The notes beneath the pieces were generated by a model, which was not told the origin of the DNA, ran no database searches, and was given only the letters and a program-made list of their open reading frames with translations. DNA of 64,000 nucleotides from Planctomycetota bacterium (GTDB taxonomy: Bacteria; Planctomycetota; MHYJ01; JACQXL01; JACQZI01). Shown here piece after piece: positions 3,821 to 52,072 of this stretch. A program made the position numbers and the translations under genes. Each line of letters begins with the position of its first letter. Positions within the stretch are counted from its first letter, which is position 1. The stretch covers positions 1-64,000 of the forward strand of contig JACQZI010000008.1 of the NCBI GenBank assembly GCA_016207825.1, in the 5' to 3' direction.

Positions 3821-5635
3821 ATGTTAGGTTACGGCGGCAATATTTTAAGAATTAATCTCTCTAATGGTCAAATCACGAAATCTCCCACTCCTGAGAAATT
3901 GATAAAGGAATATATCGGCGGCCGGGGCTTTGCGGCAAAGATTCTTTATGACGAGCTAAAACCGGGGATAGATCCTTTCGGTCCTGATAATAAAGTTGTC
4001 ATTGCTTCAGGTCCGCTTTCCGGCTTGTTCGTGCCGGGGGCAGGTAAAATCACTTTTGCCTCCAAATCTCCGGCAACTAATTCTTACGGCGATAGTAATA
4101 TGGGCGGCCATCTTGCCGCTGAAATAAAATACGCCGGTTATGACGTAATTATCCTGGAAGGAACCGCTCCCAATCCTTCTTATATATACATAAATAATGA
4201 TAAAGTTGAAATCCGCGATGCCGGCAAATACTGGGGCAAAGGCGCCATTACCGTGGAAAAGATGCTTAAGGATGATTTAGGCGAGGAATTCCAGATTGCT
4301 ACCATCGGGCCGGCCGGTGAGAACAAGGTTAAGTTTGCATGCGTCTCGCACGATTTCGGCAGGCAAGCCGGCAGAACCGGCATCGGCGCGGTAATGGGGA
4401 ACAAAAATATAAAAGCCGTGGCTATCAGAGGAAGCAAATCGCTTAAAGTAGCCGATCCCAAAGGATTGCAGGCGTTGACTAAAAAAGCAATCAGGGAATG
4501 CGCCGCGCATCCCGGATTCAAGACGTGGGTGGCCCAGGGAACCGCCTCGGTGACGGTCTGGTCCAATGAACAGGGTTCTTTCCCGACCCGTAATTTCCAG
4601 AGCGGTTGGTTTAAGGATTACCAGAAAATAAGCGGCGATGTCATGCTTAAGGAAACCATCATTACCAATAAAGCCTGCTTCGGTTGCCCGACTGCCTGCG
4701 GTAAATACGCTAAAGTAACTAAAAATGGCAAGCTTTATTACGTTGAAGGGCCTGAATACGAAACAGCCGCGCTTATCGGCGGCGATTGCGCCGTTGATAA
4801 TATTACGGATTTGAGTTATGCCAACTGGCTCTGCGATGAATTGGGGCTCGATACCATCTCCGGCGGGAGCGTGGTTGCCTTTGCCATGGAATGTTACGAG
4901 AAAGGCATTATTACCAAGAAAGATACCGGCGGGGTGGAACTGAAATTCGGCGATATCAGGTCTTTTGATAAAATTATCAATATGATTGCCAAACGTGAAG
5001 GAATCGGCAATATCCTGGCTGGCGGCGTCCGTGAAGCCGCCCGTAAATTCGGCAAGGGCTCGGATAAATTCGCCATGCAGGTAAAAGGGCTTGAGATATC
5101 CGGTTACGAATCACGTAAAGCCCCGGCAATGTTGCTTGCTTATATGACCTGCGATATCGGCGCTCACCATAACCGCGCCTGGGCTATCACCCACGATATC
5201 GCCGCGGGCCGTGATAAAATAGAGGGCAAAGCGCCTAAGGTTATCGAACTCCAGCACCTGAGGCCTCTTTTCGATATGGTCGGTTGCTGCCGTTTGCAAT
5301 GGATAGAAACCGGCATGTCCCCGGAATATTACCCTAAAATGCTGAAAGCCGCAACCGGCTTGGATTACACTCTTGAGCAATTGCTTAAATGTTCGGAACG
5401 CGTCTGGAACCTTAACAGGTTGTTCCTGATACGGGAAAATAAGGATTACGGGCGCCATTTTGATTATCCTCCCGCCAGGTTTTATGAGGAAAAAGTTCCC
5501 GACGGCCCGACACAGGGCAGTATCGTTAAAAAGGAAGATATCGAACGGCTTCTCGATGAATACTACGCCTTACGCGGTTGGGATAAAAACGGTAAGCCGA
5601 CCCAGGCAAAGCTTAAAGAATTAGGCCTGGCGTAA
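3821..5635 (+). CDS. aor: Tungsten-dependent aldehyde:ferredoxin oxidoreductase
   Basis: The 604-aa cytoplasmic enzyme oxidises aldehydes to carboxylates (or reduces acids) using a tungstopterin, a [4Fe-4S] cluster and ferredoxin. The N-terminal GGNILRINLSNGQ start, the YIGGRGFAAKILYDEL segment and GGHLAAEIKYAGYD are family hallmarks. Cluster ligands are Cys286, Cys289 and Cys293 (CFGCPTAC) with the fourth at Cys489/490 (MVGCC). Length is exactly that of the family. AAAGGAG precedes the ATG. It stands alone between two repeats, so no partner fixes the substrate. AOR indicates an anaerobic lifestyle. Confidence 0.93.
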   Translation: MLGYGGNILRINLSNGQITKSPTPEKLIKEYIGGRGFAAKILYDELKPGIDPFGPDNKVVIASGPLSGLFVPGAGKITFASKSPATNSYGDSNMGGHLAAEIKYAGYDVIILEGTAPNPSYIYINNDKVEIRDAGKYWGKGAITVEKMLKDDLGEEFQIATIGPAGENKVKFACVSHDFGRQAGRTGIGAVMGNKNIKAVAIRGSKSLKVADPKGLQALTKKAIRECAAHPGFKTWVAQGTASVTVWSNEQGSFPTRNFQSGWFKDYQKISGDVMLKETIITNKACFGCPTACGKYAKVTKNGKLYYVEGPEYETAALIGGDCAVDNITDLSYANWLCDELGLDTISGGSVVAFAMECYEKGIITKKDTGGVELKFGDIRSFDKIINMIAKREGIGNILAGGVREAARKFGKGSDKFAMQVKGLEISGYESRKAPAMLLAYMTCDIGAHHNRAWAITHDIAAGRDKIEGKAPKVIELQHLRPLFDMVGCCRLQWIETGMSPEYYPKMLKAATGLDYTLEQLLKCSERVWNLNRLFLIRENKDYGRHFDYPPARFYEEKVPDGPTQGSIVKKEDIERLLDEYYALRGWDKNGKPTQAKLKELGLA

Positions 5636-15332: not shown

Positions 15333-15772
15333 TATCCACTCCCTGCCATGGGGTAGGATAGTGGGTGCCGGACTCATAGATACAGAGTACTATCCGGTAG
15401 GATACGGGATACTCTGGGGATATTACAGCTATACAGACGGCGTATCCCTGCATCACCGGATACCTATCCCAAGATTACAGAGTATATATCCTATGATTAG
15501 TAATGCCATATCCGTAGATGGCTAATGGCGTATCCCAAGATTACTAAGTATGTATCTGTAGATGACTAATACCGTATCCTGATATTACAGGGTACATATC
15601 TATGGATTAGTGACGGCATATCCGTAGATAACAGGATACCTATCCCTATATTACTAATAGTGTATCCGTAGATAACCCATAGCCTATCCCAATACTACTA
15701 ACGGGATATCCGTAGATTACAGAGTATATAGGGGTAGATATGGAGTAGGGTAGGAGTGGGGTATCCCCACCC
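15333..15772. repeat. 22-bp-period degenerate tandem array A
   Basis: Thirteen consecutive units start with TATC(C/T) at exactly 22-bp steps: 15443, 15465, 15487, 15509, 15531, 15553, 15575, 15597, 15619, 15641, 15663, 15685 and 15707. Further diverged units in phase extend to 15333 on the left (TATCC at 15333, TAGAT at 15377, TATTA at 15421) and 15751 on the right. The consensus is TATCC-N3-GATTACTAA followed by a variable tail of about 5 nt. Many units alternate GTAGAT and CAAGAT-like cores, giving a partial 44-bp super-period. No two units are identical. 22 is not a multiple of 3, so this is not a coding repeat. Confidence 0.92.
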
Positions 15773-15784
15773 CCAAAAAAGCCA

Positions 15785-15903
15785 ACTGCACCAAAAAGGC
15801 AGTTTTAACGCAATATAACGAGGATTCAGCCTGTTTTTGGATTTATTCAGATTTTTCACTGCACCAAAAACTCACTTTTGTGTGCACTTAACTGCACCAA
15901 AAA
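15785..15903. repeat. Three direct copies of ACTGCACCAAAAA
   Basis: ACTGCACCAAAAA occurs at 15785-15797, 15858-15870 and 15891-15903 within 120 bp, immediately after array A. The first copy is also part of a small inverted repeat AACTGC...GCAGTT. No gene overlaps. Confidence 0.7.
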
Positions 15904-15971
15904 CCATGTTTTTTGGGTATTTTGTAAGCTGATTAAGCAGATTTAGCTGATTAACCCTTTGTCCTCTGATA

Positions 15972-15989
15972 AATCTGTGTAATCTGTGG
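15972..15989. repeat. Dispersed AATCTGTGTAATCTGTGG word
   Basis: The same 17-18 nt word recurs at 49786-49802 and, as an inverted pair, at 61621-61677. It is a short interspersed word of unknown role. The stretch around it (15904-16057) otherwise shows only related words and a small GCCGGCAAGGCGGG-type palindrome. Confidence 0.6.
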
Positions 15990-16057
15990 CTTATATTGAG
16001 AATGGCATCAAATATACCTGCCTCGCCGGCAAGGCGGGTGCATTTTTATACCCATAG

Positions 16058-16123
16058 TTCCCTTTTTCAGTTGACAAAGTTCCCTTTTTGAGTTGACAAA
16101 GTATCGTGCTACAGTTGGCGCCC
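16058..16123. repeat. 22-bp tandem repeat with TTGACAAAG, possible transposon-end remnant
   Basis: Two 22-bp units differing at one position (TTCCCTTTTT-C/G-AGTTGACAAAG) start at 16058 and 16080, and a third diverged unit at 16102 keeps CAGTTGGC. Repeated transposase-binding sites of about this size are known at IS21-family ends, so this may be a solo IS end. No istA/istB is present. The unit also contains TTGACA, but no downstream -10 or gene on this strand supports a promoter. Confidence 0.5.
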
Positions 16124-48285: not shown

Positions 48286-48442
48286 GATGAGAAATTAAAA
48301 ATTAATTAAATGAGATTGCGGACAAAAAGGGCAGGGTAGGACTTCCCGAAAACAAATATAATGAACCTATTATGCAATGTAATGAAGAATCAGCAAAACA
48401 GGGGGGAGGATACCTCTGCGGGCGCTACCCCTCGCGAATTCG

Positions 48443-48706
48443 GGTATGACCCCAAACGGACTAAGATACTACCTCAAATGGATGGAGATGCGGTCTCTAA
48501 CGGATAGAGATATGGAGTTTAATGGATAGAGATATGACCCTGAACGGACGAAGATACGGGTTGCAATGGACTAAATTGGGGGGTGTTAAGAATGCAGATA
48601 TGGGGTCAAACTAACCCGGATATGGGTCTGAAAGGATGGAGATATAGCCCTGATAGGATGAAGATACGGATTTGAAGGGCTGGCGATATGGTCTTGGTGC
48701 GATTAA
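48443..48706. repeat. 22-bp-period degenerate tandem array B
   Basis: Twelve units begin at exact 22-bp steps (48443, 48465, 48487, 48509, 48531, 48553, 48575, 48597, 48619, 48641, 48663, 48685). Ten have GAT at positions 1-3 and most read GATA(T/C)GG. The consensus is GATATGG-N-CCTGAA-N-GGATGGA. Units are not identical; conservation is concentrated in the GATA block and the AA-N-GGA block. The plus strand is purine-rich. It has the same period as array A but a different consensus. The start codon of the following small HTH frame lies inside the last unit. Confidence 0.92.
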
Positions 48707-48951
48707 ATCAGGGGGTTCCTGGACAAACTCTATCCTGTCTTGAGGCGGAGATAAAAAAGGCTATCAGGATAAGAGGTTATCGTTACCGGCTCAGGCTACA
48801 GACGATATTTTATTCGCTTAAAGGCTGGACGGTCGAAAGGATTTCCGGACATTTTGATATCCCGGAACGAACAGTCTATAAATGGCGTAAGATTTATAAA
48901 GAGAAAGGATTAGAGGGATTGCGCGGTAAATACTTTTCGCGCAGGTTATGA
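48688..48951 (+). CDS. Orphan helix-turn-helix protein (IS630-like N-terminus)
   Basis: The 87-aa product contains a homeodomain-like HTH (RLRLQTIFYSLKGWTVERIS followed by GHFDIPERTVYKWRKIYKEK and GLEGLRGK), the arrangement of the DNA-binding N-terminus of IS630/Tc1-type transposases and related regulators. The catalytic DDE part is missing and a stop follows at 48949-48951, so it is either a truncated transposase or a stand-alone DNA-binding protein. The ATG lies within the last unit of array B, so the array is its direct upstream region. No ribosome site is evident. Confidence 0.5.
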   Translation: MVLVRLNQGVPGQTLSCLEAEIKKAIRIRGYRYRLRLQTIFYSLKGWTVERISGHFDIPERTVYKWRKIYKEKGLEGLRGKYFSRRL

Positions 48952-49024: not shown

Positions 49025-49795
49025 ATGAGAGAAGATGATTTTAAACCGAAAGTTAAGAAATTTCTAAAGGGCTTAGGAATAGATGTGCGGGATATTCCGT
49101 CACAAGGAAATGGCAAAACACCTGATTTCAGTGCTAAAAGCAATAATGATTCATATACTATAGAATTGAAAATAAAAGGTGATGATGTTGAAGAAACAGG
49201 TAGAGAAAAAGAAGTATTAGAGAGAGGAGAAATACTTGAAAAATCTATTCCAATAGAGCCAAGAAATACATTGTCCGGTATTGTTGATGATGGTGTTAAG
49301 CAGATGAAATTCCACGACCGCGATAATAAAACCTATCATATCTTATGGATCCATTCTGCGGGGCAAGACCCGAAGTTACATTACGAGCGGTTTAAATCAA
49401 CATTATTTGGAACAGGGACTTTTTTTAGCACTGGTAAAGAAACAATGATTTGTTACTACTTTAATGAAAGTGCTTTTTATAAGCACAGAAATTCGTTAGA
49501 TGGCGTTATTCTTTCAGTCAGTGACCAGTGTCAACTTTGTGTGAATACTTTATCTTCTCGGAAAGACAAGTTTAGACAGTCAGATTTATATAAGAATTTG
49601 TCTAATGCTCTTCTTGATCCGGATGCAGAGGAAGACACAGAGGAAGGTATTATGATAGCTGATTGTGATATCGATAGAAAACATCAGGGAGATGTTGTTA
49701 AATATCTGCAAAAGAAATATAACTTGTCTTCTTTGGTACCTGCGGTACTGGAGCAATATTCTTGTGTAAGTGCTATTCCTAATAGATCTGTGTAA
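49025..49795 (+). CDS. Putative PD-(D/E)XK nuclease-like protein
   Basis: The 256-aa protein has a plausible PD-(D/E)XK core near its N-terminus: Pro-Asp in TPDFSAK, then YTIELKIK (E-x-K) 12 residues on, preceded by GIDVRDIPSQGNGK. The rest is unrecognised; DGVKQMKFHDRDNKTYHILWIHSAGQ resembles a second strand-helix element. The gene is AT-rich compared with flanking housekeeping genes. Its last codons and TAA stop are provided by the dispersed ATCTGTGTAATCTGTGG word (49786-49802). It is close to array B (320 bp). Restriction or mobile-element function is possible but unproven. Confidence 0.55.
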   Translation: MREDDFKPKVKKFLKGLGIDVRDIPSQGNGKTPDFSAKSNNDSYTIELKIKGDDVEETGREKEVLERGEILEKSIPIEPRNTLSGIVDDGVKQMKFHDRDNKTYHILWIHSAGQDPKLHYERFKSTLFGTGTFFSTGKETMICYYFNESAFYKHRNSLDGVILSVSDQCQLCVNTLSSRKDKFRQSDLYKNLSNALLDPDAEEDTEEGIMIADCDIDRKHQGDVVKYLQKKYNLSSLVPAVLEQYSCVSAIPNRSV

Positions 49796-49810: not shown

Positions 49811-52072
49811 ATGAAAAAGAAAGTTAATTTTATATTCTGTTTGCACAATCACCAGCCGGTTGGTAATTTTGATGATGTCTTTGAGGCTAATTACCGCCAG
49901 GCATACGAGCCGTTTATCAAGCTGGTTCAGCAATACCCTGAAATAAAACTGTCGCTCCATTACAGCGGTTCTCTTTTAGAGTGGATAGATAATACGCACC
50001 CAAAATTCATCACGGATATCAAATCTATGGTTAAATCCGGGCAGGTGGAGATAATGGGCGGCGGGGCATGCGACCCAATTCTAACTATGCTTCCCGATGA
50101 GGATAAAACCGGGCAGATAACTTATTTTTCCGATTACCTTAAAGAGTTATTCGGCACCAGACCGCAAGGGATGTGGCTTGCGGAAAGGGTTTGGGAACAG
50201 TACCTGGCGAAATATATTGCCGGTGCCGGATTAAAGTATACGGTTGTGGATGATTTCCATTTCCGTTCTGCAGGGATTAACCAGCATAAGCTTGACGGAT
50301 TTTTCCTTACCGAAGAGGCGGGCAGTCTCGTCAATATTTTCCCCGGTTCGGAGAAGTTGCGTTATGTCATTCCTTTCGGCGATCCCTCGGCCACGATTGA
50401 AATCCTTAAACAGTCCGCTTCGGAAGAAGGCGATAAAATAGTGGTTTACGCGGATGACGGCGAGAAATTCGGTTCCTGGCCCACGACCTATGAGCATTGT
50501 TACCAGAATAAATGGCTGGAACGGTTTTTCCGGGAGCTAAAGGAAAATGCCGACTGGATAAATTTCATCACCTTCAGTGATGCCATAGAGAAAATCAAGC
50601 CGCGGGGAAAAGTGTATCTCCCGGATTGTTCTTACCGGGAAATGACCGAATGGGCTTTGCCTGCGGAAACACTGGTCGGTTACGATGATTTGATGGAGAA
50701 AATAAAACAATGCGGCTTATACGATAAATCATTCGGTTTTATCAAGGGCGGTTTCTGGCGCAATTTCAAAGTCAAATATCCGGAAATAAACCTGATGCAT
50801 TCTAAAATGTACGAGGTGAGCGAAGAAGTAAGAGAATTGGATAAGAAATCACCGGATTACAGGAAAGCGCGCGAAGCGCTTTACCACGGGCAGTGTAATT
50901 GCCCTTACTGGCATGGCGTCTTCGGCGGATTTTACCTGCCGCATCTGAGGCATAGCATTTATAAATATCTTATCAAAGCCGAGAAGTATGTTAATAACAA
51001 GCAACTAACAACTAATAACTTACAATTGAAAGAGGCAGACTTTGACTGTGACGGTTATCCGGAAATCAAGATGTTTAATAAGGATTTATGCTGTTATTTC
51101 AAGCCTCATCAGGGAGGGGCGATGTACGAATTTGATATCGTGGAAAAGGAATTTAATCCTCTGGCCACCGTGACCAGGCGTCAGGAGGCGTATCATTACA
51201 AGATTATGAAGGCCCAGAGCATAAAGGCGGTTAGCCAGACGACAACCATTCATGACCTGGTTATTTCCAAGGAAAAAGGGCTGGAAAATCTGCTTTATTA
51301 CGATGCCTACCCGCGGATGAGCTTGCTGGACCATTTCTTCAGCCTTGATTGCAAGCTGGAGGATGTTTCCAAGTCGCATTATTGCGAGGAAGGCAATTTT
51401 ATAAATGCCGATTACTCCGCAAAAACGCCGTCCGGCCCCATTCTGCCGAAGGTCTCTACCCCCATACGGGAACTCCCTATTATTCGGGGTGCCCCCGAAC
51501 CCCGCCCCGGCGGGGGGAGCGGGGTTATCGGGTGTCCTCGAATTCCGCCTCAGCGGGAGGAGCGGGGCAAAGAGAAACAGCTCACTTTTTCCTGCCAGGG
51601 AAAATTGAATAGAGCGGACAAGGAATACCCGGTAAAATTGGTTAAATTAATCAGCCTTCTTAATCCGCCCAAAATAGGGCTTGATATTGCCTATCAAATA
51701 ACCAATAGCGGCGAGGAAGATATTGAGGTTGTATTCGGGGTGGAATTCAATCTTTCAATGCTTGCCGGCAATGCCCATGATAGGTTTTACTATTCGGCTG
51801 AAAAAGATGATATTGGCCGTCTGGTTTCGATTGGGGAGTTAGCCAGGCAGAAACTCTTTGGCATTAAGGATTGGTACCAGAAAATAGATATTGGGTTTAG
51901 CTTTGATAAACCGGCAGACATCTGGTATTTCCCGGTGCAGAGCGTTTCGCAATCCGAAGGCGGATTTGAATTGATTTACCAGAATTCCGTCATTATCCCG
52001 CACTGGAAGGTTAAATTAATGTCTGGCCGGTCATGGTCCGTAAAACTGCTTAAAACGGTCTCGTTTCTATAG
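49811..52072 (+). CDS. GH57 alpha-glucan enzyme with in-frame repeat insertions
   Basis: The 753-aa cytoplasmic enzyme acts on alpha-glucans (4-alpha-glucanotransferase/amylase type). From an upstream-extended numbering starting at the GTG 49799: FCLHNHQP opening motif, GGGACDPIL, nucleophile Glu129 in WLAERVWE and acid/base Asp at about 220 in YADDGEKFG; the C-terminal half fits the DUF1925/1926 beta-domains of this family. Two segments look foreign: NNKQLTTNNLQL (about 399-410), encoded by an ACTAACAACTAATAAC-type tract, and residues 547-590, encoded by the R1 repeat. Both keep the frame. ATG 49811 is the likely start, without a clear ribosome site. Confidence 0.85.
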   Translation: MKKKVNFIFCLHNHQPVGNFDDVFEANYRQAYEPFIKLVQQYPEIKLSLHYSGSLLEWIDNTHPKFITDIKSMVKSGQVEIMGGGACDPILTMLPDEDKTGQITYFSDYLKELFGTRPQGMWLAERVWEQYLAKYIAGAGLKYTVVDDFHFRSAGINQHKLDGFFLTEEAGSLVNIFPGSEKLRYVIPFGDPSATIEILKQSASEEGDKIVVYADDGEKFGSWPTTYEHCYQNKWLERFFRELKENADWINFITFSDAIEKIKPRGKVYLPDCSYREMTEWALPAETLVGYDDLMEKIKQCGLYDKSFGFIKGGFWRNFKVKYPEINLMHSKMYEVSEEVRELDKKSPDYRKAREALYHGQCNCPYWHGVFGGFYLPHLRHSIYKYLIKAEKYVNNKQLTTNNLQLKEADFDCDGYPEIKMFNKDLCCYFKPHQGGAMYEFDIVEKEFNPLATVTRRQEAYHYKIMKAQSIKAVSQTTTIHDLVISKEKGLENLLYYDAYPRMSLLDHFFSLDCKLEDVSKSHYCEEGNFINADYSAKTPSGPILPKVSTPIRELPIIRGAPEPRPGGGSGVIGCPRIPPQREERGKEKQLTFSCQGKLNRADKEYPVKLVKLISLLNPPKIGLDIAYQITNSGEEDIEVVFGVEFNLSMLAGNAHDRFYYSAEKDDIGRLVSIGELARQKLFGIKDWYQKIDIGFSFDKPADIWYFPVQSVSQSEGGFELIYQNSVIIPHWKVKLMSGRSWSVKLLKTVSFL
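51438..51568. repeat. Family R1 repeat, expanded copy 3 (inside GH57 gene)
   Basis: The 131-bp block starts CCATTCTGCCGAAGGTC and ends CGCCTCAGCGGGAGGAGCGG plus GG, like the window-start copy, but has an extra internal palindromic segment (CCATACGGGAACTCCC...CGCCCCGGCGGGGGGAGCGG). It is 131 bp including the expansion, yet the host frame stays open. Confidence 0.85.

Follow-up and report, generated by a model that had tools for sequence, protein, structure and literature searches.

A 22-bp tandem array at the start of an IS630-type HTH gene belongs to a dispersed family of arrays in an order of Planctomycetota

The degenerate repeat that we call array B is a genuine tandem array and a member of a dispersed family of 22-bp arrays. 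Across relatives in the same order, we observed arrays of fixed pitch in association with genes for small helix-turn-helix (HTH) proteins that have been under purifying selection, as well as array-only copies and duplicated modules of array plus gene. We think it reasonably likely that array B is an instance of a dispersed array element, some copies of which encode an HTH protein that probably coats the array.

Array B and its HTH gene

Array B occupies positions 48443-48706 (+ strand) of the window, the whole stretch of 64,000 nucleotides that was analysed, and consists of 12 units of exactly 22 bp with the consensus GATATGGCCTTGAACGGATGAA, in which a conserved block and a variable block can be distinguished. 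A sequence-only reading of the window had described twelve exact 22-bp steps with a strict period and a loose sequence. Both points were borne out: there are zero indels over the whole interval, and the mean pairwise identity of the units is 55%. The motifs that it had proposed hold for the consensus and are not a universal rule, GATA(T/C)GG at the unit start being exact in 6 of the 12 units and GATA(T/C) present in 9, and the second block, AANGGA, being found in 7 units rather than in all. Self-identity of the array was about 0.59-0.60 at lag 22 and 0.55 at lag 44, and the top period other than multiples of 22 scored 0.32. When the array was subjected to 1,000 first-order Markov shuffles (best of periods 12-60), the maximum reached was 0.43 against the 0.59 observed. 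Only two arrays, A (0.57) and B (0.60), were prominent in a lag-22 scan of the window, and the next score was 0.38. A coding repeat was considered and rejected on inspection, because the 22-bp step changes the reading frame with each unit and the units contain stop triplets.

A second copy of array B was found on contig C7. The two copies align without a gap, with 208 of 324 positions identical (64%), and identity in the flanks of the alignment is at chance level (0.23 and 0.32). Their consensus sequences are the same but for three positions, and the conservation of their columns is correlated (rho 0.50, p=0.018). By this alignment array B is slightly longer than had been claimed, reaching from about 48399 to 48722 when a G-rich distal edge at 48399-48435 (+) (GGGGGGAGGATACC...GCGGGCGCTACCCCT), which is kept in the C7 copy, is included. 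No HTH gene was found near the C7 copy. Around array B itself, comparison with relatives returned matches to conserved neighbours only.

The HTH ORF adjoining array B, P0001, spans 48688-48951 (+) and encodes 87 aa. Its ATG at 48688 does lie within the final unit of the array, as the sequence-only reading had it, but this arrangement is peculiar to B among the 19 modules with an upstream array, because in the other 18 the array and the matched gene are 84-506 bp apart. The first ~10 codons of P0001 are array-derived DNA. The start of the ORF is probably a fusion that followed a deletion, because the HTH-less C7 copy has the same array end that encodes these residues. Array B looks like a decayed member of the family, one which has lost its leader and hairpin.

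P0001 matches PF13384 (HTH_23) in Pfam at 1.9e-13; its N-terminal match to the NCBIfam IS630 model NF033545 (1.4e-6, first 47 of 299 positions) falls far under the curated cut-off of that model. In the family alignment A1, both the IS630 model (E<=0.01) and HTH_23 were matched by 15/15 members, HTH_33 by 5/15 and the NCBIfam Cbp1 model, weakly, by 1/15 (E 0.0086). A profile search with A1 gave 2lvs as the nearest solved chain (E 1.6e-4), which we take to be the CRISPR-repeat-binding protein Cbp2, and the PAI domain of Sleeping Beauty as the second-nearest structure (E 0.029). HTH relatives in the order fall into two size classes, of ~80-115 aa with one HTH and of 145-175 aa with two, and the proteins stop after their HTH domain(s). 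They resemble IS630 and Tc1-mariner transposases in having an N-terminal HTH of the IS630 type. Unlike IS630 transposases they are missing the C-terminal catalytic domain (DDE_3, PF13358), which is absent from genomes G000 and G003 and represented in G007 by a single fragment, and no full IS630 element was found as a source within the same genomes. Judging by these matches, P0001 corresponds to the DNA-binding portion of an IS630-type transposase minus its catalytic domain.

Four pairs of HTH genes gave dN/dS values of 0.15-0.27, and therefore purifying selection has acted on these proteins; C7_177k, one of the genes in these pairs, now carries an internal stop. The predicted structure of P0001 alone had a mean pLDDT of 52 and was left unused. 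PADLOC returned no defence match for P0001, for its relatives L060 and L088, or for a 256-aa ORF 3' of the HTH gene (window 49025-49795), which has no match in Pfam or PHROGs either. Viral contigs queried with the C10_193k protein yielded no confirmed relatives.

Association, pitch and dispersal of 22-bp arrays

Searching the 9 genomes of the order with A1 gave 40 HTH matches, in 6 genomes. An array with a top period of 22 or 44 adjoins 27 of the 40, as against 3 of 59 control tiles, which were drawn from the surroundings of the modules and of the window and not from random places; all 3 positive tiles are arrays without a recognisable HTH gene. By genome, matches with an array numbered 11/15 in G000, 9/11 in G003, 6/9 in G007, 1/2 in G001, 0/2 in G005 and 0/1 in G004, where the one match is weak, and no array was seen at 13 of the 40. 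An array was accepted if its top period was 22 or 44 and the better of its lag-22 and lag-44 identities was at least 0.55. On these grounds 27 of the 36 modules examined were kept; L085, with a top period of 12 (a microsatellite), was left out, and L087 (0.54) lies just below the limit. Lack of a conserved 22-bp phase in relatives had been named beforehand as a result that would refute the idea of array B as the binding region of the HTH protein, and the idea survived, given the 22/44-bp arrays at these 27 matches. In a sample of 294 genomes from the phylum, an HTH match at 1e-12 was obtained in 5, of which 3 are within the order; the five loci in the two genomes outside it (L104-L108) have no 22-bp array. 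A scan of genome contigs with P0001 returned 2 loci, neither with a 22-bp array.

The 27 HTH-linked arrays contain 5-18 units each and have a fixed polarity, lying upstream of the gene in 19 modules and downstream in 8. The 8 downstream-array modules are all of the one-HTH type and, where the N-terminus is present, have an MPYP-like start (M-P/S-Y/H/F-P). Many arrays are bordered by edges that were judged by eye to be G/C-rich and palindrome-like (GGGGTA...TACCCC). Immediately 5' of the gene, several 2-HTH modules have an additional short group of 22-bp repeats containing TTGAC or TTGCG, and when the leaders were summed, 22 was the best of the 28 periods from 12 to 39 (496, with 426 for the runner-up). 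We regard these gene-proximal repeats as a better candidate operator than the array. No resemblance between them and the array units was found in 16 modules (mean rank 7.4, expected 8.5). Nor was a common partner gene found beside 16 modules, the exceptions being one G003 pair and a few weak or partial matches. In G003, a ~310-aa protein with three HTH_17 (excisionase-like) domains is encoded beside two related HTH-array modules (L138:1176-2105 and L100:3164-4207).

Array A, at 15444-15731 (+), is a second element of the same kind as B in the window, with a 22/44-bp period and a self-identity of about 0.56-0.57 at lag 22 and 0.63 at lag 44. It is adjoined by a G/C-rich palindromic edge at 15742-15775 (+) (GGAGTAGGGTAGGAGTGGGGTATCCCCACCCCC), which is similar to the edges at other arrays. 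Its leader, at 15758-16098 (+), was found by BLASTN to be 77% identical to a leader on contig C17 that precedes an intact 2-HTH gene. TRF detected in the leader of array A short 22-bp repeats (AGTTCCCTTTTTCAGTTGACAA, 16056-16102, +) that are a candidate operator, with lag 22 ranking first among 28 periods. No HTH match was found near array A, whose own HTH gene is missing.

Compared at the level of sequence, the pitch of the arrays is constant while their units differ between modules. The 27 arrays comprise 299 units with 1,416 substitutions relative to consensus, and only 2 units fit better off register. Since a 22-bp lattice was used to collect the arrays, an indel could have shortened an array, a point addressed in part by searching past the ends, where 1 off-lattice unit copy, near an end, was found within 250 bp of the 27 arrays. 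The conserved columns of a unit lie together in clusters (k=1 power, p=0.0005 in 26 arrays and 0.0065 in the upstream family), the near-duplicate G3C1 having been omitted from this test and from the dyad test. An 11-bp sub-period of conservation was not significant (p=0.10). Palindromic units were rejected as a general feature, with 1 of 26 arrays clear in column shuffles (p=0.005) and a weak pooled Stouffer value of 2.0. In G000, further tandem arrays with a period of 42 or 21 were seen (L152:1110, L158:13238, L155:5683 and L164:17926), which may be coding repeats or else form a sister class whose pitch is 21 bp.

The most uniform arrays, with lag-22 identity of up to 0.95, are near-perfect repeats. 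Array uniformity is higher where the HTH gene is intact than where it is broken or missing (16 vs 9 arrays, medians 0.76 vs 0.63, one-sided p=0.008). An exception to this trend is a very uniform orphan array on contig C12 of G003 (L136, about 3900-4195), whose unit is that of G3C18. This array has no HTH gene and lies directly 3' of an ORF that, judged by eye, resembles ParB.

Arrays of period 22 or 44 numbered 6 in 336 kb sampled from G000 and 6 in 148 kb from G003, and none was found in 113 kb from G004, the stretches having been picked by contig number and their lengths counted in non-N bases. Many array-only loci turned up in these stretches, which were taken irrespective of HTH genes, and they contradict the notion that nearly all arrays come with an HTH gene. 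Because such array-only copies exist, there are more arrays than HTH genes, and since many stand alone, an array is more than just a promoter region for an adjoining HTH gene; in this respect the earlier view of array B, which stood as far as the 22-bp phase in relatives is concerned, was not borne out. In G003, a module of ~870 bp comprising array and gene is present at two places with unrelated flanks, and two more copies of its array, elsewhere in G003, end alike on the distal side and lack an HTH gene. These four copies sharing a distal end represent a dispersed intergenic element whose ends are defined and whose array has no spacers. Inspection by eye of the ends of the G003 copies revealed neither terminal inverted repeats nor target duplications, and the putative mobility is read from the dispersed copies.

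Several other dispersed sequences were observed. L163 and L166 of G000 have a leader in common with the HTH module of contig C34 (L086/L098), with 70-79% identity, and their arrays may be array-only relatives of C34; in L166 a 230-aa ORF of unknown family occupies the position of the HTH gene. At nine loci of the window's genome (L051-L059, on contigs C32, C35, C31, C24, C17, C10, C8, C42 and C11), a stretch identical over up to 139-140 bp has nine endpoints, mostly contig ends, with a common terminus (...CAACAGAGCA) that is followed by GGG in 8/9. We take it to be the probable terminus of an insertion element present in multiple copies, at which the assembly breaks; on C32 and C17 it lies directly against an array or the G-rich edge of one. 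A short dispersed repeat at 51435-51572 of the window has many matches in G000 and G001.

As regards specificity, the unit pattern of C10_193k, searched genome-wide in G000 with <=3 mismatches, has 9 sites, all inside its own array. The G3C18 unit was found in G003 in its own array, in the HTH-less C12 array and at two further places, one of which is the related G3C33 array. Such a genome-wide distribution does not look like that of a scattered regulon. In close pairs of modules the units resemble each other in step with their HTHs, with a unit similarity of 0.98 at 91% HTH identity and 0.78 at 74%, but this does not hold across the whole set. Over all 171 pairs of 19 modules, the Spearman rho between unit and HTH similarity is 0.13 (p=0.09), and the Mantel r of 0.51 (p=2e-4), or 0.32 (p=0.0014) minus two recent duplicates, rests on few pairs. 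C10_193k and C7_177k have HTHs that are 89% identical and gene-proximal repeats that are nearly so, but an array similarity of only 0.42; this mismatch argues that the target of the HTH may be the gene-proximal repeats instead of the array.

Proposed mechanism and rival explanations

The mechanism that we propose infers binding, filament formation, mobility and function from sequence. In this reading the element is an intergenic tandem 22-bp array with G/C-rich edges, present in part of one bacterial order, and some copies add a gene for a small protein that has a single HTH domain or a pair of them, of the IS630/Tc1-mariner type, and no catalytic domain. This protein would bind the conserved block, with one molecule (2-HTH) or one dimer (1-HTH) per 22 bp; a bipartite domain of the IS630/Tc1 type would fit about one unit. 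Contact between neighbouring proteins would cover the array with a regular filament, and pitch would be kept despite sequence drift because such a filament would need a fixed 22-bp step. The short 22-bp repeats by the gene would serve autoregulation, and the coated array may hold, silence or help copy the element.

We judge it unlikely that the HTH protein is an autoregulated transcription factor and the array merely a long operator before its gene. An operator would explain why the array lies upstream, in fixed orientation, in 19/27 modules, why 22-bp repeats with TTGAC motifs are found close to the start codon, and why the one tested unit pattern, that of C10_193k, is confined to its own array in G000. 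However, the array is downstream of the gene in 8/27 modules and numerous arrays stand without a neighbouring HTH gene; in addition, 12-18 sites across 300-400 bp greatly exceed the needs of an operator, and both whole modules and array-only copies are dispersed. The arrays could also be neutral minisatellites that arose by slippage and decay and came to lie near HTH genes through joint accumulation in intergenic or mobile DNA. Their frequency in the G000 and G003 samples would fit this, as would the unrelated units at most loci and the near-perfect repetition in some arrays, which resembles recent amplification. We nevertheless consider neutrality quite improbable, as it accounts poorly for a single period, 22 bp or its double, in all 27 HTH-linked arrays, for nearly zero indels against 1,416 substitutions, for the clustering of conserved columns within the unit, for the gapless 64% identity and nearly identical consensus of B and its C7 copy, and for the arrayless G004 sample.

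ParR/parC works by cooperative assembly on tandem sites, and this precedent, along with the array-only copy just 3' of a gene that is ParB-like by eye, could point to a nucleoid or segregation platform of the host, in which the arrays would be centromere- or anchor-like and the HTH protein a domesticated architectural protein. Against this, each genome holds numerous different units and proteins, flanking genes are not shared, no common motor NTPase neighbour of the kind that accompanies a partition centromere (parC/parS type) was found across 16 modules, and A1 matches are missing from 3/9 genomes of the order; we therefore hold such a platform to be very unlikely. It is hardly credible that the arrays encode guide RNAs of the CRISPR or TIGR type, with the variable block as a short spacer, even though units of 22/44 bp with conserved and variable blocks, repeats that are locus-specific and a single adjoining gene recall such systems. 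The most uniform arrays wholly lack variable spacers, the Pfam matches of 8 proteins around arrays A and B include neither a Cas protein nor the Nop-domain protein of TIGR-Tas, the neighbours of 16 modules have no partner in common, and the adjoining protein is a DNA-binding transposase domain. The identical repeats with unrelated spacers, accompanied by cas genes, that characterise CRISPR were not found at these arrays, in which the 22-bp units are contiguous. Having weighed these alternatives, we favour the reading of array B as one copy of a dispersed and probably protein-coated array element.

Comparison with known systems

Among open-licence PMC papers, no title or abstract describing HTH-linked 22-bp arrays was found. 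The closest in form to the array element is BrickBuilt, a minisatellite-MITE of Porphyromonas gingivalis. As described in PMC4596501, it is a dispersed intergenic element built on a spacerless 23-nt tandem repeat, with a leader and a tail, 19 copies per genome and a narrow host range; its copies have a single repeat sequence in common and short inverted repeats at their termini, with no transposase remnant (PMC4596501). The array element is likewise a spacerless tandem array within a dispersed intergenic element with defined ends. It differs from BrickBuilt in its 22-bp pitch, in units that vary by element, in inverted ends that were not recognised and in that some copies encode a DNA-binding protein. 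In REPIN-RAYT (PMC3116915), the REPINs consist of paired palindromes, and the RAYT protein belongs to the tyrosine transposases. The array element shares with this system small dispersed extragenic elements and a transposase-derived gene beside some of them, but its arrays are long and made of direct repeats, and its protein is an IS630-type HTH that lacks a catalytic domain.

Cbp1 and Cbp2 are small archaeal HTH proteins that bind CRISPR repeats and so coat the array, and Cbp1 acts on CRISPR arrays, in which the spacers are unrelated (PMC10883916). In a similar way, a small HTH protein goes here with a repeat array, which it would coat if our inference is right; unlike the arrays of Cbp1, the 22-bp arrays occur without CRISPR and without spacers. 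TIGR arrays have 8-12-nt repeats that are locus-specific and 9-nt spacers (PMC12045711), but the diverse spacers that alternate with repeats in TIGR-Tas are absent from the uniform arrays described here.

Degenerate tandem repeats in bacteria are usually regarded as neutral debris. A pitch that is kept across unrelated sequences beside one protein family offers a testable case of selection on the repeat step. If the HTH proteins bind the arrays, they would provide many natural protein-array pairs of varied specificities for studying recognition by IS630/Tc1 domains, and a way to ask how the DNA-binding domain of a transposase turns into a satellite-binding protein.

At the eukaryotic centromere, CENP-B links a transposase-derived DNA-binding domain to fast-evolving satellite arrays, the alpha satellite. 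Unlike CENP-B and alpha satellite, the arrays described here are small and many per bacterial chromosome, and the binding of protein to array is putative. We suggest, tentatively and as a possibility only, that they form a bacterial satellite-DNA system in which a catalytically dead protein of the IS630/Tc1 type maintains private tandem arrays, fast-changing in sequence at a constant 22-bp pitch, and the repeat step, not the sequence, is selected. If this is true, autonomous (HTH-encoding) and non-autonomous (array-only) copies coexist in one genome, and the system is a bacterial counterpart of CENP-B and its satellite DNA.
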